Notes under the pieces: model-generated | Told to the model about the DNA's origin: nothing | What the model saw: the letters and a program-made list of their open reading frames with translations, nothing else | Database searches by the model: none | DNA from: Candidatus Eiseniibacteriota bacterium | GTDB taxonomy: Bacteria > Joyebacterota > Joyebacteria > Joyebacterales > Joyebacteraceae | NCBI GenBank assembly: GCA_030622115.1 | Contig: JAUXGN010000022.1 | Location: 1-42,723 of the forward strand | Direction of reading: 5' to 3' | Length of the DNA stretch: 42,723 bases | In this document: in pieces, positions 6,571-42,723 of the stretch | How the letters are laid out: each line of letters opens with the position of its first letter | Numbering within the stretch: the stretch's first letter is position 1 | Program-made: the position numbers and the translations under genes

Positions 6571-9135
6571 CTACTTGAGCAAGATCATCTTCCGCGAAGA
6601 TGTGAACGTCTCCGACGTAATCCGGTAGAAGTAGATTCCGCTTCCAGCGGGTTCGCCGCGGTCGTTCCTTCCATCCCACACGACCTCGTGCGGACCGGAC
6701 GATCTCCGCTCATCAACCAGCGTTCTCATCTTCTGCCCGGCGACATTGTAGATCTCGAGGAGAACGTCGCCCGGCTGCGCGATGCTGTAGGCGATCGTCG
6801 TCGTCGGATTGAACGGGTTCGGCCGGTTCTGCGACAGCGTGAAGCCGACGGCCGGGACCTCGTCCCCGGGATCGTCAATCCCCGTGGGTGTACCGAACCA
6901 ATCCACCGCATCCTGAATAAGCATCCTGATGTCGTCATCGTCTGTGAACTGCGACAGATCAAACGTCAGGTAGAACGATTTGTAGATCAGGTTGTCGAGC
7001 CAGAGACCGGCGCCCAGCTCGTACGCGTACGCGTACCCACTGAACGGGCCGTCCTGGAACAAGAAGGACGCCCACGACCAGATGTCCGGATTGCTGACCT
7101 CGTCCCAGTAGGATTCCGGGCAGCTGTCGTTCACGATCACATCCGGGCTGTCGGCGTACACGGGCAGCTCAACACCTTCATCGCCAATGGGAGAACCGAC
7201 GCATCCGATGATGCTGCCGTAATCGTACTCGTACGTGTAGGGACCGCCGATCCCGTCCGTTCCGGCGTGCGGCGGGACGCCAACGGTGCCGTCAGGAACG
7301 TACTGGGCTCTCAAGTATCCCCTGAAGAACTTCTTCATCGGCCTGAGGTATGAAATGGCGTGCTGCTTGTTCCCGAACTCGTCCGACGCGAGGAACAGGT
7401 TCTTGGGATCTCCTGTTGTGCCGCTGTTAAGGAAGTCGATGAGAGCGGCCGAGAGCGTGTCTGACTCGGCGCCCGAACCCATGCTGTTGCCGTAGACAAA
7501 GATCGCGCTGTAGGTCTCCGGGAAGGCGTACTCCTCGTACTCCTCCCAGTTGTAGGTGTCGTAGACCAGATCCGCGGCGTCCAGCGCCATGACGAACACC
7601 GGGAACTCGATGTTCTGATAATCCTGGTAGCCAGGAACCGTACCCGCATGGGCCAACAGCACCTCGACACCGTTGGTGGGAAGCATCCGGATGGAATAGT
7701 GCTCGCCCGGAGCATCTTCCGGTAGCGTCCCTCTGTTACTTATCGGGGCGCCGTCATTCGCGGCAAAGTAGTACCGCAGCTCCGTACTGATGGGAATCTC
7801 GGGCAGCACATAGTTGTACGTATTCGGCGCCTCGAAACTCGCGTGAGCCACGGCCTGCCAACCCTCACCGTAGTTGTAGTAAAGGGAGTCGGTAGCTACT
7901 CCCGATGCGTCGGTGATGGTTACCGACACCCCCGGCGTCGTGTCGAACGTGTTGCCGATCTCTTCGTAGACAAAGGCAGGAGGCTGCTCATCGACCTCTA
8001 TGAAGAAGCGGATCGCGAGCTCATCCTCAAGGAAGTTACCAGGCGGCTCGATGCCCCGGTACTGACCGCTCACGACGATCTCCCGCACGTAGCAGAGACC
8101 GATATCGGCAGTGTCGTTCTGAATGCCGACCGTCGAGCTGCGGCCTTCGTCGTGAGAAGCGTTCGTGCCTGTCTGTCCAAGCGTCACGTCCTGGTACTGG
8201 AAGATCATGTCGCCGTTCTCATGGAAGATGACCTCAAACGTGAGTGTCATCTCATCGACGGTGCCGTGACCGAACGTGAAATCGTGCCACTCGACGACGC
8301 AGTAGCGGTTGGGAGCATCTCCAAAGGTTTCGAAGTAGGTGTCGCCCGTTCCCTCGATCGCCTTCAGATCGTCCCAGAGAGGCGCCACGAGCGCTGGCAT
8401 CTGCGTGAATCCGGGGATGGGATAGACGTAGTTGAAGAAGAAACCGTCGCTGTCCCAACCAGAGTCCGGATAGGGCTCGTACCAACCGTTGTCAGCCAGC
8501 AGGATCTCACCGTTCGTGTCGACGTACATGTAGGTTCTATCGATCCCGTAGAACGGGAAGGTGAATCCGAACGGGATCGGTTCCGAGAAGTTCTCGTCGC
8601 CGGAGAAACTCGGGACGCCGTACATGATCGTGGATGTCCCGGTCTCGCTGATCTCGATCCAGTCGTACACCGGGCCTCCGGGCTCGCCGCTGTCGATCCA
8701 CTCGTATCCCATCTCATCGGGGCCGCCGGTCCCGTAGTGTTCGGCGATCTCGGTCTCGATCTCGTGCGCGTCGTTCCCGGGATTCGCATCACCGGCGAGC
8801 GCCGTTGTCATGGTGACCGCATAGGCGCCGAGCGCGGTCGGTAGCCACGTGTCGATGAACGTCACCACGTCGGTTGCACCAGGCGCGATCGTGCCCGAGT
8901 GAACCACCGTGCTGCTATAGACTGTCACCATCGACTCATCGACGATCTCGCACGTGACGTCGAAGCTCGCCGTCACGTCCGAGCCACCGAAATTCTGCAC
9001 GGTCCCCGACGGCGTCAGTACCCTGTCCACGACCTCGGACATGTCCGGCTCCTCGATCGAGAGCACACCGACGTCTGCCGGGGCCGATACAACCGCCAGA
9101 AACACCATCACTACTGCTACCACTGCCGCTCTCAT
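6571..9135 (-). CDS. large secreted protein with CARDB-like and FlgD-type C-terminal domain
   Basis: An 854-residue exported protein. The ATG at 9135 follows GGAGGG and starts a signal peptide (MRAAVVAVVMVFLAVVSAPA). An Ig-like CARDB region comes first (about 30-125: VQNFGGSDVTASFDVTCEIV). A region with PFGFTFPFYGIDRTYMYVDT and YCVVEWHDF follows (about 175-320) and resembles the nidogen-like all-beta domain found in many bacterial secreted proteins. A middle region (about 490-600) with LLAHAGTVPGYQDY and VYGNSMG looks like a Rossmann or gingipain-like alpha/beta fold, but without a recognisable catalytic dyad. The last about 90 residues are a FlgD-like tail (SQNRPNPFNPTTTIAYS, VVWDGRNDRGEPAGSG, MILLK). 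It lies downstream of the gene at 9260-9823 on the same strand. Function is unknown. Confidence 0.87.
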   Translation of the reverse strand: MRAAVVAVVMVFLAVVSAPADVGVLSIEEPDMSEVVDRVLTPSGTVQNFGGSDVTASFDVTCEIVDESMVTVYSSTVVHSGTIAPGATDVVTFIDTWLPTALGAYAVTMTTALAGDANPGNDAHEIETEIAEHYGTGGPDEMGYEWIDSGEPGGPVYDWIEISETGTSTIMYGVPSFSGDENFSEPIPFGFTFPFYGIDRTYMYVDTNGEILLADNGWYEPYPDSGWDSDGFFFNYVYPIPGFTQMPALVAPLWDDLKAIEGTGDTYFETFGDAPNRYCVVEWHDFTFGHGTVDEMTLTFEVIFHENGDMIFQYQDVTLGQTGTNASHDEGRSSTVGIQNDTADIGLCYVREIVVSGQYRGIEPPGNFLEDELAIRFFIEVDEQPPAFVYEEIGNTFDTTPGVSVTITDASGVATDSLYYNYGEGWQAVAHASFEAPNTYNYVLPEIPISTELRYYFAANDGAPISNRGTLPEDAPGEHYSIRMLPTNGVEVLLAHAGTVPGYQDYQNIEFPVFVMALDAADLVYDTYNWEEYEEYAFPETYSAIFVYGNSMGSGAESDTLSAALIDFLNSGTTGDPKNLFLASDEFGNKQHAISYLRPMKKFFRGYLRAQYVPDGTVGVPPHAGTDGIGGPYTYEYDYGSIIGCVGSPIGDEGVELPVYADSPDVIVNDSCPESYWDEVSNPDIWSWASFLFQDGPFSGYAYAYELGAGLWLDNLIYKSFYLTFDLSQFTDDDDIRMLIQDAVDWFGTPTGIDDPGDEVPAVGFTLSQNRPNPFNPTTTIAYSIAQPGDVLLEIYNVAGQKMRTLVDERRSSGPHEVVWDGRNDRGEPAGSGIYFYRITSETFTSSRKMILLK

Positions 9136-9195
9136 GCGTGTCCCTCCGCTTTTCTCCAAGCTACCGGCACCGGGAACGCCGCCACGGAGCCCTGA

Positions 9196-9259: not shown

Positions 9260-9823
9260 CTACCTGTATGTCGCCTTGATGGCCGTCCACGTGGCCGACT
9301 CGACGGGCGACGGCTCCTGACCAACCCTCACGTCGTCAACCAGCATGGCGTAGTCGTTGTTGAACCACACGATTGCGAGGTAGCAATTCTCACCGGCATA
9401 CGGCGTCAGGTCGTACTGATACTTGACGTACGATGAACCGACTGTGACGGCATCCAACTCTACGGTGAAATCCCCGGCCGCAGTGCCTGTCGTGGAGAGT
9501 CTCACCTCGAAGTCCTCGGTTCCGTACCAGGATCTCGCGTAGAATTCAAACATGTCGGCGGGACTGACGGTCACCTGCGGCGTGATCAGCCAGTCGTTGC
9601 CGGCGCCGGCGCTGGAGTAGTACGCCACGGCCGCCATCCAGTCACCGGTGTGGGCATAGCCGGAGTTGTTGTAGGCGAACCAGTCATCCGTGTCTCCACC
9701 GCTGATGATGGTCCAGCTAGCCGGAATCCCGCCACCCTCAAAGCCCTCGTCGACGGACCAGTCGGCAAGCGCCATCGGAGCGGATACGAGAACTATGGCC
9801 AGAAGCAATACGAAACCCTTCAT
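9260..9823 (-). CDS. secreted choice-of-anchor-J-like protein with TWxxIKAxYR tail
   Basis: A 187-residue exported protein. The ATG is preceded by GGAGATC and begins a signal peptide (MKGFVLLLAIVLVSAPMALA). The body (about 23-170) matches the cleaved-adhesin/choice-of-anchor J jelly-roll: EGFEGGGIPASWTI, GNDWLITPQVTV, FEFYARSWYGTEDFEVRLST and AIVWFNNDYAMLVDDVRVG. Proteins with this domain carry different C-terminal sorting signals in different lineages. Here the protein ends in ATWTAIKATYR immediately before the stop, the motif also found at the ends of three other secreted proteins in the window. The role is probably cell-surface or extracellular; the ligand is unknown. Confidence 0.85.
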   Translation of the reverse strand: MKGFVLLLAIVLVSAPMALADWSVDEGFEGGGIPASWTIISGGDTDDWFAYNNSGYAHTGDWMAAVAYYSSAGAGNDWLITPQVTVSPADMFEFYARSWYGTEDFEVRLSTTGTAAGDFTVELDAVTVGSSYVKYQYDLTPYAGENCYLAIVWFNNDYAMLVDDVRVGQEPSPVESATWTAIKATYR

Positions 9824-17746: not shown

Positions 17747-18337
17747 TCATCGATACAGTGCCTTCACAACACCCCATGACACGTCACCAACAGGCGTGCC
17801 GCCCAGACATCCTTCGGGCGGCTCCATCCCCACACCCACGGTGCCCCCTGTATTGAAATCTCCGTAGAGATACCAGGTGACATCTACATCGTCGCAATTG
17901 ACCATGGAGTTGCCCGCCGTCACGTGCGCGGCAGGCGTGATGGCGCCGGGCCCACCGAGATAGAGATACTCAACCGAGATGATGGGAATGAGGCCAAACT
18001 GGTTCGGTGTGGCGCACTCTCCCAGGGGCGTACTCAGAGTCAAGCCGGAGTCTTCGATATCACCGGACTCCGATCCGTACAACCAGCTCGTTTCTCCGAG
18101 CTTGATTCCCTCAAACGTGCGATCGAAGCGGAGAGAGATCTCCGTGATCCCGTCGTCGGTGAACAGCCCGAGGTCTCCGAGGTAGACAGTCACAGTAAAG
18201 GTCTCGTTCTCGAGCGGCCAGATGCAGTTCGCCCCACCACCGACGTCGAAGTACAGATAGTCCGTCGCGGGTCCCGGATTCGAGAAGGCGACTCCGGAAA
18301 CACACACGACTATGAGAGCAATCGCCACATAGCGCAT
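17747..18337 (-). CDS. small secreted protein with SWGVVKALYR tail
   Basis: A 196-residue exported protein of unknown function. GAGGAGGG precedes the ATG; the signal peptide is MRYVAIALIVVCVSGVAFS. The body is all-beta in character, with one segment recalling cohesin/dockerin-partner-like secreted folds (FTVTVYLGDLGLFTDDGITEISLRFDR), but the match is weak. The protein ends exactly in DVSWGVVKALYR, the same C-terminal motif as the genes ending at 9260, 19426 and 19524. It is the first gene of a probable pair with the lipoprotein at 15833-17719, and diverges from the tagged gene at 18554. Confidence 0.8.
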   Translation of the reverse strand: MRYVAIALIVVCVSGVAFSNPGPATDYLYFDVGGGANCIWPLENETFTVTVYLGDLGLFTDDGITEISLRFDRTFEGIKLGETSWLYGSESGDIEDSGLTLSTPLGECATPNQFGLIPIISVEYLYLGGPGAITPAAHVTAGNSMVNCDDVDVTWYLYGDFNTGGTVGVGMEPPEGCLGGTPVGDVSWGVVKALYR

Positions 18338-18470: not shown

Positions 18471-18553
18471 TGTGGTAAGTATGATTGGTATTCTAATGGT
18501 CGCAGGTAGTGCATGGAATGCCCCTGCCCTGCGGCACCAAAGGGAGGATGTTC

Positions 18554-19426
18554 ATGTCAAGAACAGTTATCGTGTTCGCCATCCTGGCACTCATCTGCGG
18601 AACGGCCGTGGCCGGAGGCGTGAGTGTTTGGAACGACGTCAGCTTCATCGGAACCGAGGGAGGTCTCTCGAGGGCGATCATCGACTCATTTCTCGCGCCC
18701 GGAGATACGCCCCTGGGTATCGACTGGGTCGAGGGAAACGGTGTTTTCTATCACGTCGACGAGTGGTCGTCGGACGTCTACTCCATCACGCCCGATGGAA
18801 CAGCGACGTTGCTCTTCAACGCATTGGAGCAGCTGGGATTCACGGAGTCCCACTGTCTGGCCGGTGGCGTGTGCTACGTGGAGACACCCACTCGTGAGGG
18901 GCATCTGTACATCACCGACAAGGACGGCCACCCCGAGGATCTTCTTACGGACCGCGTGTACCAGTTCACACTCGATGGGACGCTCGTCGATTCCTGGGAC
19001 ATCGAGTCCATCTGCGACGGCGTTATCGGGATATGCTTCGACGGGACGTACTTCTGGCTGTCCAGCTACACGAACGGCCAGATCGTCAAGTGCGACGCCG
19101 ATTTTCAACAGGTGGCGGTGTATCCCCACCCGATGGGCACCGGAGGATCCCTCGACTACGATCCGGAGACCGGGTACTACTACGTCACCGACTTCATGGC
19201 CGGGATGATCTACGTGTGTGACGCCGAGATGAACCAGATCGCCGCCTACAACGGTCCGACAACCGGCTTCATGATAACCTCGCTGGCCGTGGGCCGCACC
19301 ATCCGCGGGAGGACGCTCTGGTGCTCGGGTATCGTTACCGGCCCGTTCATCTTCGAGATCGATGACGACTACTACAACCCCGTTGAGGAAGCTACGTGGG
19401 GATCGATCAAGGCACAGTATCGATAG
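18554..19426 (+). CDS. secreted beta-propeller-like protein with TWGSIKAQYR tail
   Basis: A 290-residue exported protein. The ATG at 18554 lies six bases after AGGGAGG and starts a signal peptide (MSRTVIVFAILALICGTAVAG); an ATG two codons earlier would be too close to the ribosome site. The body has repeated propeller-blade-like motifs such as LGIDWVEGNGVFYHVDEW, VIGICFDGTYFWLSSY, and SLDYDPETGYYYVTD followed by GMIYVCDAEMNQ, suggesting NHL/YncE-like blades. It ends in EEATWGSIKAQYR directly before the stop codon. It faces the beta-helix gene at 19524-20762, which carries the same tail, across a strong hairpin. Function unknown, probably surface-associated. Confidence 0.83.
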   Translation: MSRTVIVFAILALICGTAVAGGVSVWNDVSFIGTEGGLSRAIIDSFLAPGDTPLGIDWVEGNGVFYHVDEWSSDVYSITPDGTATLLFNALEQLGFTESHCLAGGVCYVETPTREGHLYITDKDGHPEDLLTDRVYQFTLDGTLVDSWDIESICDGVIGICFDGTYFWLSSYTNGQIVKCDADFQQVAVYPHPMGTGGSLDYDPETGYYYVTDFMAGMIYVCDAEMNQIAAYNGPTTGFMITSLAVGRTIRGRTLWCSGIVTGPFIFEIDDDYYNPVEEATWGSIKAQYR

Positions 19427-19523: not shown

Positions 19524-20762
19524 CTACCGGTACATCGCCTTGAGTACGCCCCACGTCGTGTTCTTCACCGGGCTGTCGCAGCCCTCGCCATTCACACCCA
19601 TGAGGACTCCGCAGTCGTTGTTCCCCGCGAGGCACGGTGATGCCGCATCAACGAAGTAGACGTCGTGCGGCTCCTCACAGAAGAGCGGGTCGACCGCGAT
19701 GTTTCCGCCCACGCCCGTCTGATCCGGAAGGTTCACGCCGTCGTAGTCACCGTCAGTGTGACCATAGACGTCACAGCAGGTGATGGTCGGGAAGTCCTCG
19801 ACCCGGTACGCCCCGATGCCCGGACCATTCTCATTGAAAGCAACAAGGCAGTTGGTTATCGACGGCGTCCCGTACTTCACGAAGATGCCGCTCCCACACC
19901 CCGCCCCTTGATTGTACGCCACGGTGCAGTTCAGAAGCCCGCCACCGGACGCGAGAACGCCGCCGCCATGTCCGCCTGCCAGCGTGGTATTCAGGACAAT
20001 GAGGCAGTCAGCTAGCGTAACAGACGTCAGGCGGACGCCTCCGCCGGAATAGGCCGAGTTCGAGATGAACGAACACCGCTCGATCGTCGCTCCGTAGGCG
20101 CTCTGGAGGTACATTCCCCCGCCCACGCTCCCCCCTGTGTTACCTGTTATGGAGCAATCGCGGATCGTTGGGGAAGCCATGTAGACGCTGATGCCGCCGC
20201 CGTAGGAGCTGGCCCCGCTGCACGAGGTGATGACACAGTCTTCGATGACCGGGGAAGCATCGTACACGATACTGATTCCCATGCCCATTGGAGTACCTTG
20301 ACTGAACGTGCAGTTCTCGATGCGACACCCACGGATGGTGGGGCTGGATCCGATGATCCGAATACCTCCACCTCCGTATTTCGTCGGTGAGGTATCGCAC
20401 ATGTGACCGTTCGTGATCGTCAGGTCCTCGATGAGCGAAGCAATAGTCTCCGCGGTCTGGAAGGTGAAGCCGCGGTGCGGATCGGTTGCTGAGCCACCGC
20501 AGTCGATGACGCACGTCGTGGGGTCTCCCGACTGGGAACGTACAGTGACGTCCTTGCCCGCGAAATCGATGTCGCGGTTGCCATCACCTGTAAAAGTCCC
20601 GTCCGCAAGCTCAATGATATCCCCGGCCACCACAGCCGTCACGGCCGCCTGGATCGTGGCGAAATCGCCGAGCCCGTCGGGGTGGACGACATACGTGGTC
20701 GCTCCGCACACAGTCACCAAGGAGAGCACGATGCCCAACACAAACACCATCACAGTCCTCAC
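19524..20762 (-). CDS. secreted right-handed beta-helix protein with TWGVLKAMYR tail
   Basis: A 412-residue exported parallel beta-helix protein (PF13229/pectate-lyase-like fold). The start is taken as GTG at 20762, six bases after AAGGAGG. It gives a signal peptide (RTVMVFVLGIVLSLVTVCGA), whereas the longer frame upstream has none. After YVVHPDGLGDFATIQAAVTAV (about residues 23-43, the usual N-cap), the helix is built of repeating coils such as SPTIRGCRIENCTF, SPVIEDCVITSCSG and GGGISVYMASPTIRDCSITG. The end is KNTTWGVLKAMYR, then stop. Such proteins often bind or cleave polysaccharides, but no catalytic residues can be assigned. A decayed tagged mini-gene lies just upstream. Confidence 0.87.
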   Translation of the reverse strand: MRTVMVFVLGIVLSLVTVCGATTYVVHPDGLGDFATIQAAVTAVVAGDIIELADGTFTGDGNRDIDFAGKDVTVRSQSGDPTTCVIDCGGSATDPHRGFTFQTAETIASLIEDLTITNGHMCDTSPTKYGGGGIRIIGSSPTIRGCRIENCTFSQGTPMGMGISIVYDASPVIEDCVITSCSGASSYGGGISVYMASPTIRDCSITGNTGGSVGGGMYLQSAYGATIERCSFISNSAYSGGGVRLTSVTLADCLIVLNTTLAGGHGGGVLASGGGLLNCTVAYNQGAGCGSGIFVKYGTPSITNCLVAFNENGPGIGAYRVEDFPTITCCDVYGHTDGDYDGVNLPDQTGVGGNIAVDPLFCEEPHDVYFVDAASPCLAGNNDCGVLMGVNGEGCDSPVKNTTWGVLKAMYR

Positions 20763-20826: not shown

Positions 20827-20993
20827 TTACTGCACCTCATCTCGCCGGTACAGTGCTTTGATCCTTCCCCAAGACCTTACCAGTGGTCGGCGAACGTGAA
20901 GGTCTGCACCACGAGCGAACAGACAACAGCAATGGCCTGATGGATCGGCCTGAGTCTCACAGCGGATGTTCTCCTTGCTCTCTGCGGGGCCAT
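20827..20993 (-). pseudogene. remnant of a tagged secreted-protein gene
   Basis: On the minus strand an ATG at 20993, six bases after AGGAGG, opens a 38-residue frame with a basic start and a hydrophobic core (AIAVVCSLVVQTFTFA), like a signal peptide, stopping at 20877. A different frame immediately after it reads RSWGRIKALYRRDEVQ and then stops at 20827, containing the ten-residue tail motif seen intact elsewhere. Together they look like the two ends of a tagged secreted protein whose body was lost and whose frame was shifted. A short functional peptide is less likely, since the tag is not at the exact end. It sits between the COG3014 lipoprotein and the beta-helix gene. Confidence 0.5.
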
Positions 20994-21003
20994 CCGCGTC
21001 CTC

Positions 21004-22485
21004 CTAGTCACATCGCACGGGGTGCGGACCGCCGAACACGCGCGCTGCGCGGAATACCTTGCCGCCTGACGAGACTGTGACGCGCCCCAGCGCGACCGGA
21101 GTACCCGTGCCTTCGGGTACGATAGTCACCTCGTACTCCCCCGGCAGAGCGGGAATCCTGGCTATCCACATCCCGGCGGGGAGCGTGATCCAGCTTCTCG
21201 TATCCGCCTGTTCGGTCTCGGCAACCGCGCGTGTGACGACATCCTCCACGACCGCCCTCAGAAACCACGCCCCAAAGCTGTCGTCCTTGTTGTCGTCCTT
21301 GGTCCGCTTCCCCTCGCGATCGTGCTTCGCCTTCGCGAGCGCGACCTGCTTGACAGTAGCGCGTAGCGTTGACCTCAGCTTGATCGCGCCGATCCTGCGC
21401 TCGAGCGTCCACCGCGCCAAGGCGTCGACATCCTGCGTGCGTTCAGCCCAGGCGTGCTCCACGCGATGCGAATACGCCGCGGGGCCGCCCGCTCCTGTAG
21501 CAGACTGTCCACCCGCGCCATCCTCTCCACCTACCAGAGCGCCGACTCTGGTCACCCCCACCCGAAACTCGTCCACCGTCCACGGCACGCTCTGGAAGAC
21601 CGGGTAGGCAATCTTGACGTAGGCGGCAAGATGCGAGCTGCCACGAAGGTCATTGGGAACGAGGCCCTTGTATATGGGGAATTCGATCGACTCCTCGAGT
21701 TTGTACGGCGCCCAGCCTGAATCAATGATGACCACGATCTCGCCCATTCCCGCAGGCACTGGGCTCAGCACACCAACGGTATCGACGAGCGCGCGCGTGT
21801 CATCCTCGCGGCCGAGCTGACGACCGAGCCCCACAAACGATTCTGCAAGCCCCTGAGGTATTCCCATCGATGCTCCGATACCGGACTCGCCTTCGTAGGC
21901 ACCCGCAGCCAACAAATAGTCGATGAACGCATCTTCCTGCTTCCCGATCGCCTCATGGATGAGCCCCGAAAGATATCGAATGAACCCATCATCCTGATAG
22001 CGGTCGGTGCCCTCTTCGTATCGCGCATCAAGCTTGCGGAAAACCTCATCAAGACGGCGGCACTCAACGAGTGCGCCTTCGAGATCGTCCAACATGAGGT
22101 AGTTCAGGGTCATGTAGTAGTGGAGGTAGGCGCGCTCGAAGTCCTCACCGGGATATGCCTTCACGGTCTCGTTCAAGGTGTAGTCTGCGACGGTCCCCGT
22201 AATGCTCACGGGCTCGAGCTCCCCGGCCGCTATGACCGCCAGCTCGAACTCGTGGTTGCTCTCCTCAAACTTTCCCGCCAGATGGAGCAGATGGCCGCGC
22301 TGCGCGCGGTAGAGAAATCGATCGTTCTCAGTGTCCGCGATAGCGGTCTTGTCGATGGCCTCGACTGCGGCCGTGAGATCGCCCGCGTAGGCCTTCTCGA
22401 GAGGTTCGCAGATGACGCGCGCGGCGGGCGTGCAGCCGGACAGGAGCCCGGCACACACGCACACTGCGACGATGCGCTTCACCAC
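21004..22485 (-). CDS. COG3014-type lipoprotein, partner of LpoB
   Basis: A 493-residue lipoprotein of the uncharacterised COG3014 group. The GTG start follows GAGGAG; the signal ends at lipobox LLSGC (Cys18). The N-terminal half looks like TPR-type helices (RFLYRAQRGHLLHLAGKFEES, HYYMTLNYLMLDDLEGALVECRRLDEVF; residues about 56-165). The C-terminal half has PSWAPYK-like IIDSGWAPYKLEE, and the beta-rich AYVKIAYPVFQSVPW. A Gly/Ala-rich, low-complexity linker (about 325-345) is visible. In many Gram-negative bacteria a COG3014 gene stands next to an LpoB gene, exactly as here (27-bp gap). This suggests a shared envelope role, perhaps in peptidoglycan synthase control, but its activity is not established. 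Confidence 0.82.
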   Translation of the reverse strand: MVKRIVAVCVCAGLLSGCTPAARVICEPLEKAYAGDLTAAVEAIDKTAIADTENDRFLYRAQRGHLLHLAGKFEESNHEFELAVIAAGELEPVSITGTVADYTLNETVKAYPGEDFERAYLHYYMTLNYLMLDDLEGALVECRRLDEVFRKLDARYEEGTDRYQDDGFIRYLSGLIHEAIGKQEDAFIDYLLAAGAYEGESGIGASMGIPQGLAESFVGLGRQLGREDDTRALVDTVGVLSPVPAGMGEIVVIIDSGWAPYKLEESIEFPIYKGLVPNDLRGSSHLAAYVKIAYPVFQSVPWTVDEFRVGVTRVGALVGGEDGAGGQSATGAGGPAAYSHRVEHAWAERTQDVDALARWTLERRIGAIKLRSTLRATVKQVALAKAKHDREGKRTKDDNKDDSFGAWFLRAVVEDVVTRAVAETEQADTRSWITLPAGMWIARIPALPGEYEVTIVPEGTGTPVALGRVTVSSGGKVFRAARVFGGPHPVRCD

Positions 22486-40122: not shown

Positions 40123-42723
40123 CTAACGCAGCAATACAAGCTTGGCTTCCGCGCTCGTTCCACCAGCAACCAGTCTTACGAAGTAGATGCCCGATGGCAG
40201 AGGGCGTCCGCCTTCGCCAGTGCCGTTCCACAGAACTTCGTGGTCACCGGCCGCGAGTTCCCCGCTGAAGGCGCGGGCTATAAGTCGGCCGCTCACATCG
40301 TAGACGCTCACGTCTACGCCCCCACGCTCCGGCAGTGAGAACGCGATGCGCGTCTCCCCGACCGCCGGGTTCGGCATCATAGGATGAAGCATAAGGCGGG
40401 AGACGGATGGACCTTCGCCCACTCCGGTATCGGTCAGAAGCTGCACGTAGTACTCATCGCGTTCGATGTGGGCGTCGCCATCGCCTGCAGGGATCTGAAG
40501 CATGATCGATCCGCCGTCGTGTGTCTGATAGTGACAGGCTGTAACGAGGACCGAATCCGGGATCACACCGAAGAGCGCAGCCAGATCGAGCGCGCCCTCG
40601 AGCCACGAGCCGGCGAACTTCTGGGCGCTCGATGACTCGTACACCTGCTCCGACGAATCGAACCACCCGACCCAACCATTTGATTCCTCGTTGGCGAGAA
40701 AGAACTCCCACCCGGCCACCGTCCCCGACTTGCCCCACGGCGCGTCTCTGTATCCGGACGGATCTCTGTCCACCAGGATGAAGTGATCGCGTCCCGACGT
40801 GCTTCCGACACCCTGCGTGGCCACGTAGAGCCACGTGCCGTCGAAGGCCGTGTAGAGGTCGCTTCCCCCGTTACTCGCCGCGAGTTCCGCCTCAGGATCG
40901 AGCGCGCCATCCATGATGAATCCGGAAGGTCCGCTACCACCGGTGACAACCACGCTCCAGTCGGAACCTCCGTTGTTGTCCCAGTTGCCCGCTCCGTCAT
41001 TGAAGACAAACTCGACCGATGACGCAGCGGTCGGAATCGCGTAGTCATAGCGCCAGGCTTCCTCACCGGCGTCCCACACCATCGACGGATCCGGACTCAG
41101 GACATCCTGCCATCCACTGTGCCCGATGTGGATGTAGACCGGGCTCGTTCCTCCTGGAAGAACGCTGCGGCAGTCGAGGTCATAGTAGACACTGACCGTG
41201 CCTTGAGCCTCCGGTTCATCGGGATCCCACCAGACACATGTGTCGGACGGCGCCCCGCCGCCGCTTCCGACCCAGACGTGCTGGATGGGCGTGCGCTTGA
41301 TCAGACCGACGCTGTCGGTGGCCACAACGTAGTAGTCGAGAAGAACATCCTCAAAGCCCGTCATGTGAACGTAGTACTGGTCCGCAATGTAGTCAGGCAT
41401 CTCGCTGAAGTTGATCTCGGGCTGTCCGTAGACGTTGCCCGCAGGGAAGTTGCGCATGGTCATCGGAACCGTCTCCCAGGCCCCCACACCAGCTCCACCC
41501 TCATACGTCTCATTGACATCGGTCGAGAGTGGATTCGTTCCGTCTGCGTCCACGCGGTATTTGAGGTCTACACCCGCGAGTCCCGAGACGTCGTGCGCAA
41601 ACGTCCAGATATGGAAGTCCTGCGACATCACGGCCCCCGCTCCCCCCGGATATCCCCAGAGAGCGCCGCCGCCCATGCCGCCCGGATTCCACGGAAGTCG
41701 CTGCGGGATCCAGACCGTCGGCGCCACGACATCGCTCCCGGCCGCGATGATCGGGTCCGCGTGCGCCATCGCGTTGTTGCACGCAAGCGTTGCCTTGATC
41801 TCGAAATCGAGCGCGTTCCCGTAGTACATGTAGCCGCTCTCGTAGCCGGCCAGGAGGAAGTGCCACGCTTTCTCGATGTCGTTTGCGCCGAGTGTGGGGT
41901 CCTGGATCTTGACCGGATCGGCCGTCCCGGCGATGGCTTCCGCGGTCTCGACCCGGTTCTGCGCCGCAGTCAGCACGGCCCAGTTTCGCTCATCAAGCGC
42001 CCATCCCCCGGCGATATCGAACGATCCTCCCGAGTCGTAGAGCGGCCAGTTCCAGTTGATGAACTGTGGACTCCCGAAGTCGCCGTCCGCGTTAACCCAA
42101 CCGCCGTCCTCCACGTGAACGACATCCGCCGGGTCAACGGGATGGTCGGCCAGGTACTCCGCGATCACCGTCGGTTCGTAGCCCTGAGCCACCGCCGCGT
42201 GCGAGAAGCCGGTGACGTTCTCGTACCAGTACGAGTGTCCGCCGGACCAGGCGTTGTCTCCATCGTGCGCGAAAAGAAACAGCATCGGCTTATCCGGATC
42301 GTTGTACGATGCGATCGCATCTATCTCGCCGGTTCCGTAGAGTCCGTAACCTTCGTTCCAGGACATCGCGTTTGCCGCCGGGACGACCACTATCTTCGAC
42401 TCGGCGCCCGTCTCCGGATCAACGTATCTAGCGTAGTGAGGCGTGAACCCGAACGGAGGCGGGATCTTTACGGTCACACCGCGCGGTATGGTCTGGGAGT
42501 AGTAGTAGCCCTGTGCAGGATTCTGCTGGTCGGCCGGATTCGGCGGGTCGCAGTTGTCCTGGCCGGCATCATATGGATAGTCGGTGCACGCGCGCGATAT
42601 GTGAAGGTCCGCCACGATCGACCAGTCTATCCCCTCCTGAACAAGCACTGGAATGAGCCGCTCGGAGAAACACGTCTCCGCCGGGAAGAACCCGAGCGAG
42701 TAGTTCGAGTCGCCCCAGGCTCC
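40123..42723 (-). CDS. GH57-like secreted glycosidase with FlgD-type tail (5' end outside)
   Basis: The C-terminal 866 residues of a larger secreted enzyme; the start lies beyond the right edge. The first visible residues (LGFFPAETCFSERLIPVLV) match the GH57 alpha-amylase-like region around the catalytic Glu, and LFLFAHDGDNAWSGGHSYW corresponds to the region with the second catalytic acid. Later parts look like a starch-binding CBM25-type module (VSVYYDLDCRSV, VYIHIGHSGW, VEFVFNDGAGNWDNNGGSDW) and a DOMON/glucodextranase-F-like module (IMDGALDPEAELA, RDHFILVDRDPSG). The last about 90 residues are a FlgD-like tail (PMMPNPAVGETRIAFS, VLWNGTGEGGRPLPSG, KLVLLR). An alpha-glucan-degrading role is likely. 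Confidence 0.85.
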   Translation of the reverse strand, partial: GAWGDSNYSLGFFPAETCFSERLIPVLVQEGIDWSIVADLHISRACTDYPYDAGQDNCDPPNPADQQNPAQGYYYSQTIPRGVTVKIPPPFGFTPHYARYVDPETGAESKIVVVPAANAMSWNEGYGLYGTGEIDAIASYNDPDKPMLFLFAHDGDNAWSGGHSYWYENVTGFSHAAVAQGYEPTVIAEYLADHPVDPADVVHVEDGGWVNADGDFGSPQFINWNWPLYDSGGSFDIAGGWALDERNWAVLTAAQNRVETAEAIAGTADPVKIQDPTLGANDIEKAWHFLLAGYESGYMYYGNALDFEIKATLACNNAMAHADPIIAAGSDVVAPTVWIPQRLPWNPGGMGGGALWGYPGGAGAVMSQDFHIWTFAHDVSGLAGVDLKYRVDADGTNPLSTDVNETYEGGAGVGAWETVPMTMRNFPAGNVYGQPEINFSEMPDYIADQYYVHMTGFEDVLLDYYVVATDSVGLIKRTPIQHVWVGSGGGAPSDTCVWWDPDEPEAQGTVSVYYDLDCRSVLPGGTSPVYIHIGHSGWQDVLSPDPSMVWDAGEEAWRYDYAIPTAASSVEFVFNDGAGNWDNNGGSDWSVVVTGGSGPSGFIMDGALDPEAELAASNGGSDLYTAFDGTWLYVATQGVGSTSGRDHFILVDRDPSGYRDAPWGKSGTVAGWEFFLANEESNGWVGWFDSSEQVYESSSAQKFAGSWLEGALDLAALFGVIPDSVLVTACHYQTHDGGSIMLQIPAGDGDAHIERDEYYVQLLTDTGVGEGPSVSRLMLHPMMPNPAVGETRIAFSLPERGGVDVSVYDVSGRLIARAFSGELAAGDHEVLWNGTGEGGRPLPSGIYFVRLVAGGTSAEAKLVLLR

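Follow-up and report, generated by a model that had tools for sequence, protein, structure and literature searches.

A Short Interval Combining a Signal Peptide and a C-Terminal Tag Is Very Probably a Chimeric Scar of Two Genes in a Candidatus Eiseniibacteriota Genome

Introduction

Does an interval of 167 bases, in which a signal-peptide-like frame and a short C-terminal tag lie only a few bases apart, represent one small gene, the two ends of one decayed gene, or the ends of two different genes? This question is raised by positions 20827–20993 of a 42,723-nucleotide stretch of DNA from a Candidatus Eiseniibacteriota bacterium (the whole stretch analysed, hereafter the window). The first-pass annotation described the interval as the fossil of a single tagged gene whose body is missing. 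We find it very probable that it is a chimeric scar, composed of the start of an untagged PNGase F-like gene and the end of another, tagged gene.

Chimeric pseudogenes and other gene remnants left by deletions are a known kind. The scar resembles them in that two gene ends stand side by side and out of frame, the gene bodies are lost and the remnants in sister species differ. Unlike ordinary chimeric pseudogenes, it has a lineage-specific C-terminal tag as one of its ends, which gives it a gene-like look.

Below, G000 is the genome of the window, a draft of 2.63 Mb in 98 contigs, and G001, G002, G003, and G004 are its sister genomes.

Results and Discussion

Genomic Context of the Interval

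On the minus strand, the interval is bounded by the end of a lipoprotein gene (21004) and the GTG start of a beta-helix gene (20762). The relevant features of the window are:

21004..22485, minus: lipoprotein gene (COG3014 according to the first-pass annotation), used as the anchor for comparing the interval
20877..20993, minus: open frame from ATG 20993 to TAA 20879–20877, opening with MAPQRARRTSAVRLRPIHQAIAVVCSLVVQTFTFADHW (sequence)
20886..20960, minus: 5' remnant of a PNGase F-like gene, with GTG, signal peptide, in-frame loss of about 19 codons, and VQTFTFAD (tblastn, blastn)
20875..20885, minus: junction of the two remnants (sequence and alignment)
20845..20874, minus: SWGRIKALYR, probably the 3' remnant of another, tagged gene, with one mismatch to the genome-wide tag pattern
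20827..20844, minus: RDEVQ and TAA (20829–20827) behind the tag (sequence)
19524..20762, minus: adjacent beta-helix gene, which is intact and carries a tag of its own, KNTTWGVLKAMYR (Beta_helix, 2e-20); the G003 and G001 orthologs retain the tag
18509..19426, plus: tagged gene (EEATWGSIKAQYR), tag site at 19397 on the plus strand
17747..18337, minus: tagged gene (DVSWGVVKALYR), tag site at 17751
9260..9823, minus: tagged gene (VESATWTAIKATYR) with a Cleaved_Adhesin domain, tag site at 9264

The elements that had been reported are indeed there: a signal-peptide-like frame between the lipoprotein and beta-helix genes, a shifted frame behind it (20874–20827) that encodes SWGRIKALYR and five further residues, and, with it, a fifth example of the tag in the window. 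The other four tag sites lie at 9264, 17751, and 19528 on the minus strand and at 19397 on the plus strand. The lipoprotein gene was matched in 12 of 41 genomes, with 82–83% identity in G001, G002, and G003; no Pfam or NCBIfam model matched it.

The Tag Half

The tag was searched for at the DNA level with the pattern W-G-x-I-K-A-(L/M/I)-Y-R, allowing up to three mismatches, and the reversed pattern served as control. This revealed 70 sites in the 2.63 Mb of G000 and none for the reversed pattern; therefore, the match at 20874 is not a chance similarity, a possibility that the first-pass annotation had raised. When three is taken as the upper bound for a count of zero, the chance of one such site in the 167-base interval is about 2e-4. 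The complete core W-G-x-I-K-A-x-Y-R is found at 20871–20845, with one DNA mismatch to the pattern. One row retained among the 70 (L223, WVAIVALYS inside a frame) is probably a chance match.

Fifty-three of these sites end exactly at the tag, 13 (the scar included) continue for 1–12 further residues and four lie deeper inside a frame. At the scar, the tag is close to the C-terminus, being followed by five residues and a stop. Since 12 other tag sites have tails of 1–12 residues, this tail is by itself no sign of decay. Judging from the letters, the CGA codon that follows YR may have arisen from a TGA stop by mutation. In the 53 exact-end tags, W and K are invariant, Y occurs in 52 and R in 49, and the preceding positions are also well conserved (V at -5 in 50, P at -6 in 46, and E at -4 in 44). 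At the scar, no P-V-E is found at positions -6 to -4 before W, which is preceded by R-P-L-V-R-S, and the signal peptide and the tag are in different frames.

The Signal Peptide Half

When the scar stretch (241 bases) was compared with 20 genomes by blastn, matches with E below 1e-3, other than to itself, were found only on one G004 contig (best 3e-5). The start of this G004 gene in turn matched the window at 20960–20886 by tblastn (E 5.9e-4 in a small database). In G004, the match falls at the beginning of an open frame, MKLNPIHQVASVLCLLVVLTPWLPRAACADPGDTLAVQTFTFSDIETRRATFDF... (the first codon, GTG, being read as M), which reaches the contig end after 89 codons, and this protein piece matched longer, PNGase F-like genes in related genera. 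The G016 copy has 907 residues and contains Laminin_G_3 and N-glycanase_C domains (N-glycanase_C 58.4 bits, cut-off 25, E 8.7e-16). N-glycanase_C (PF09113) is above its cut-off in the G013 copy as well, and N-glycanase_N is below cut-off in both of the proteins scanned (13.5 bits against 22.4 in G013, no match in G016). Intact relatives of the 5' half thus pass the Pfam cut-off, whereas the window retains the signal-peptide end only: the 907-residue protein matched nothing in G000 and gave only marginal matches in the window.

The 5' homology of the scar covers a short stretch of about 25 codons, interrupted by a gap. The stump reads VRLRPIHQAIAVVCSLV-VQTFTFAD, which is a G004-like start minus about 19 codons, and homology ends with the GAC codon whose last base is 20886; the start of the tag core is at 20874. 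In G004, the piece missing from the stump is flanked by the similar stretches CTCGTCGT and CTCGCGGT, an arrangement that would suit a slippage deletion.

The frame had been thought to start at ATG 20993 behind a well-placed ribosome site. A frame from this ATG does exist; however, the homologs begin further downstream. Both G001 and G004 align from GTG 20960, and most of the preceding 33 bases, including the ATG, have no counterpart in G001. We therefore take GTG 20960 as the start of the signal-peptide frame. The AGGAGG before ATG 20993 lies immediately next to the lipoprotein stop, and G002 and G003 share it without having this frame. The frame could be translated into 28–39 residues, and nothing suggests that such a product is used.

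None of the six full-length PNGase F-like copies, all from related genera (G006, G007, G010, G013, G016, and G018), has the tag; they end with ...RFFVGDPH or a variant of it. The G012 copy, which is split over two contigs and whose 3' piece (L282) could be aligned up to residue 906, was left out of the six.

The Same Interval in Sister Genomes

In G001, the lipoprotein gene is followed immediately by the first 43 codons of the PNGase F-like gene, broken at a different point, and then by genes with FlgD-type tails. G003 retains the final 98 codons of this PNGase F-like gene, ending without a tag, about 540 bases behind the lipoprotein gene. No PNGase F-like remnant is present at this interval in G002. 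Three species of the genus (G000, G001, and G003) therefore contain different debris of one PNGase F-like gene. The lipoprotein gene was not found in G004, and the intact 5' end of its PNGase F-like copy follows an unrelated gene where a contig ends; the ancestral place is thus deduced from G000, G001, and G003. In a tree of the lipoprotein and LpoB, G001 and G003 group together (support 93) and G000 is apart. Most likely, the PNGase F-like gene was present at this interval in an ancestor, and the breaks then fell at different points in different lines. A full tagged gene at the same interval, which the single-gene fossil would lead one to look for in relatives, is not seen in G001, G002, or G003 as far as their contigs reach.

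The comparison also bears on two other readings of the locus. It could be imagined that the interval encodes a real small protein of about 40–50 residues, in which frameshifting joins signal peptide and tag. In its favour, each of the two ends can be recognised, and a ribosome site and a start can be drawn for it. However, such a protein is not conserved at the interval in any of the three sister genomes, where G001 and G003 have different remnants and G002 has none; moreover, a single shift would leave few residues between the signal peptide and the tag. We regard this reading as hardly credible. The other is an assembly or sequencing artefact at the junction, near 20880, which the draft state of the 98-contig genome might invite. 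The left side, i.e., the lipoprotein gene and the signal-peptide stump, recurs in G001, and an indel alone would be unable to restore a gene body, which makes an artefact very improbable.

The rest of the interval has changed too. In G003, a FlgD-tailed gene fills the space before the beta-helix gene. The same gene is found at a contig end in G001, where the beta-helix gene is cut by the end of another contig. In G000, this FlgD-tailed gene is located elsewhere (C26:5201-7404, 82% identity), indicating that genes also enter and leave the interval and that plain deletion is not the only possible history. The FlgD-tailed gene has an in-frame TGA (CEYG-stop-FEPMDW) at the same place in three species (G000:C26:5201-7404, L291; L045 10598-10600; L046 8314-8316), beyond which the frame is conserved up to the tail. 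It may be either an old broken gene or a case of readthrough.

Origin of the Scar

As the PNGase F-like 3' remnant within the same genus is untagged, the tag piece most likely came from another gene. The alternative is that a PNGase F-like gene gained a tag in this lineage and that an internal deletion then left its two ends. In favour of such a history, only a few bases separate the signal peptide from the tag, and a signal peptide is usual in tagged proteins (a signal-peptide-like start was found in 46 of the 50 tagged frames with a closed 5' end, using a crude rule of our own). Against it, the six intact copies and the G003 remnant of the same genus are all untagged, and we consider this alternative very unlikely. 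Of the fossil proposed in the first-pass annotation, the decay stands and the single tagged gene with a missing body does not. No donor of the tag was found: in 20 genomes, the 241-base stretch gave no match that went beyond its tag or signal-peptide parts, and the tag piece together with the downstream 80 bases matched nothing.

For the chimeric scar, the origin of the 5' half, the untagged intact copies and the different fragments in sister species are shown by the comparisons above; how and in what order the deletions took place, and that a tagged gene was once present, we infer as follows. In an ancestor of the genus, the gene right behind the lipoprotein gene would have encoded an exported PNGase F-like protein with no tag. 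In the lineage of G000, a deletion may have removed most of this gene apart from its start codon, its signal peptide and a few residues, and the signal peptide might itself have lost about 19 codons, perhaps through a deletion between short imperfect repeats. The same or a later deletion would have placed the stump beside the last codons of an unrelated WGxIKAxYR-tagged gene that presumably stood before the beta-helix gene. The two halves are out of frame, and both gene bodies would be gone.

In our view, the scar is non-functional debris, consisting of two out-of-frame stumps that are not conserved. It is new as an example only and has no importance as a gene. What it does show is that an adjoining signal peptide and tag can pass for one gene, and that the site behind the lipoprotein gene is one where surface-protein genes are lost and moved.

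Inheritance and Relocation of the Tag

A further possibility is that the decaying PNGase F-like gene received the tag segment by copying or insertion; the tag would then be a movable cassette, and a second gene would never have stood at this place. Such mobility is suggested by three paralogs of G000 (C42:291 and C42:1719, both on L023, and C26:22943, on L004) that have, inside a domain, an in-frame stretch of about 32–36 residues with the tag; other homologs lack this stretch. The tag cores are retained (WGAIKTLYR, WGAIKARYR, and WGSIKASYR), and the paralogs are 42–58% alike. Since the tag is carried inside the sequence of these proteins, its relocation has happened, although the three cases may go back to one old event followed by duplication.

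At the scar itself, however, the surroundings of 20874 showed no element borders, and a search of G000 gave no near-identical copy of the tag piece. Moreover, the tag of the beta-helix family is inherited together with the body: it, or a close variant, is present in all ten homologs with a readable 3' end (the window's own gene not counted), three of which have an FE or YE end in place of YR. This count leaves out L246, which runs off its contig, and one weak further match (L240). Insertion of a cassette at the scar is accordingly very unlikely, and the suggestion in the first-pass annotation that tags are exchanged by recombination draws no support from 20827–20993.

A broader reading is that PVExxSWGxIKALYR, of about 16 residues, is an undescribed phylum-wide export label which acts beside a type IX secretion system (T9SS) and whose DNA can be moved as a cassette. 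We offer it as a rather doubtful speculation. If it were true, the scar would represent a tag cassette left behind in an untagged gene undergoing decay, in place of the chimeric remnant that we prefer, and the three paralogs with internal tags would be successful relocations.

Possible Role and Distribution of the Tag

The tag is of wider interest than the scar. In living genes, its most likely role is to label, at the C-terminus, proteins that a signal peptide has already exported. Should it prove to be an export label, one could look for the receptor and the machinery that serve it. It shares with PEP-CTERM, GlyGly-CTERM, and MYXO-CTERM the character of a short C-terminal sorting motif on many unrelated proteins per genome. 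These three have a membrane helix and a basic end, whereas the tag is too short for a membrane helix. Among the four tagged proteins of the window, no model of the tag was met in Pfam or NCBIfam, and none of them matched the T9SS tail models (TIGR04183/Por_Secre_tail). Two untagged window proteins match TIGR04183 above cut-off.

The window has two classes of tails, a T9SS type A/FlgD-like class (6571–9159 and 40123–42648) and the short-tag class (four genes: 9260–9823, 17747–18337, 18509–19426, and 19524–20762).

SprA_N, a domain of the T9SS translocon, was detected in 17 of 20 genomes of the phylum, including all 13 good ones, and in none of 14 control genomes. The tag resembles T9SS C-terminal signals in being a C-terminal label on proteins with a signal peptide (PMC11969387). 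It is shorter, at about 16 residues, than the short T9SS CTDs described in that study, which have 43–55 residues and several motifs (Open Biol. 2025, PMC11969387). For one Porphyromonas gingivalis signal, the last 22 residues are reported to be needed for surface delivery (PMC3120885); the tag would be shorter than this as well. It is at most a candidate T9SS signal.

Using the tag pattern followed by a stop codon with at most two mismatches, we found the tag in all 20 genomes of the phylum, with 25–76 hits each and none in any genome for the reversed control. Exact tag matches in named public genomes amount to at least 110 loci, most of them labelled Candidatus Eisenbacteria or plain "bacterium." Among the loci listed, four are assigned by title to Effluviviaceae, five to Krumholzibacteriia, and one to Gemmatimonadota; Candidatus Effluviviacota has been described as a phylum (PMC11323493). 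A literature search, with supplements and most subscription papers beyond its reach, returned no paper on the tag or its peptides.

The 53 exact-end tags are followed by TAG in 43 cases, TGA in 8, and TAA in 2. Among the 32 listed genes of the window, TAG is used by 23, TGA by 9, and TAA by none. The G+C content of the genome is about 60%, and a preference for TAG is unusual for such a composition. In two further tagged genes, the tag is intact but an in-frame stop codon precedes it, TGA in G000:C75:71203 (L225) and TAG in G000:C55:3967 (L196). In G007, a protein encoded at L274 7589-8476 (...VLNAFHCLSGADTPVESSSWGVIKTLYR) ends in the tag as if truncated by it, and the stretch directly before the tag resembles a serine protease histidine site.
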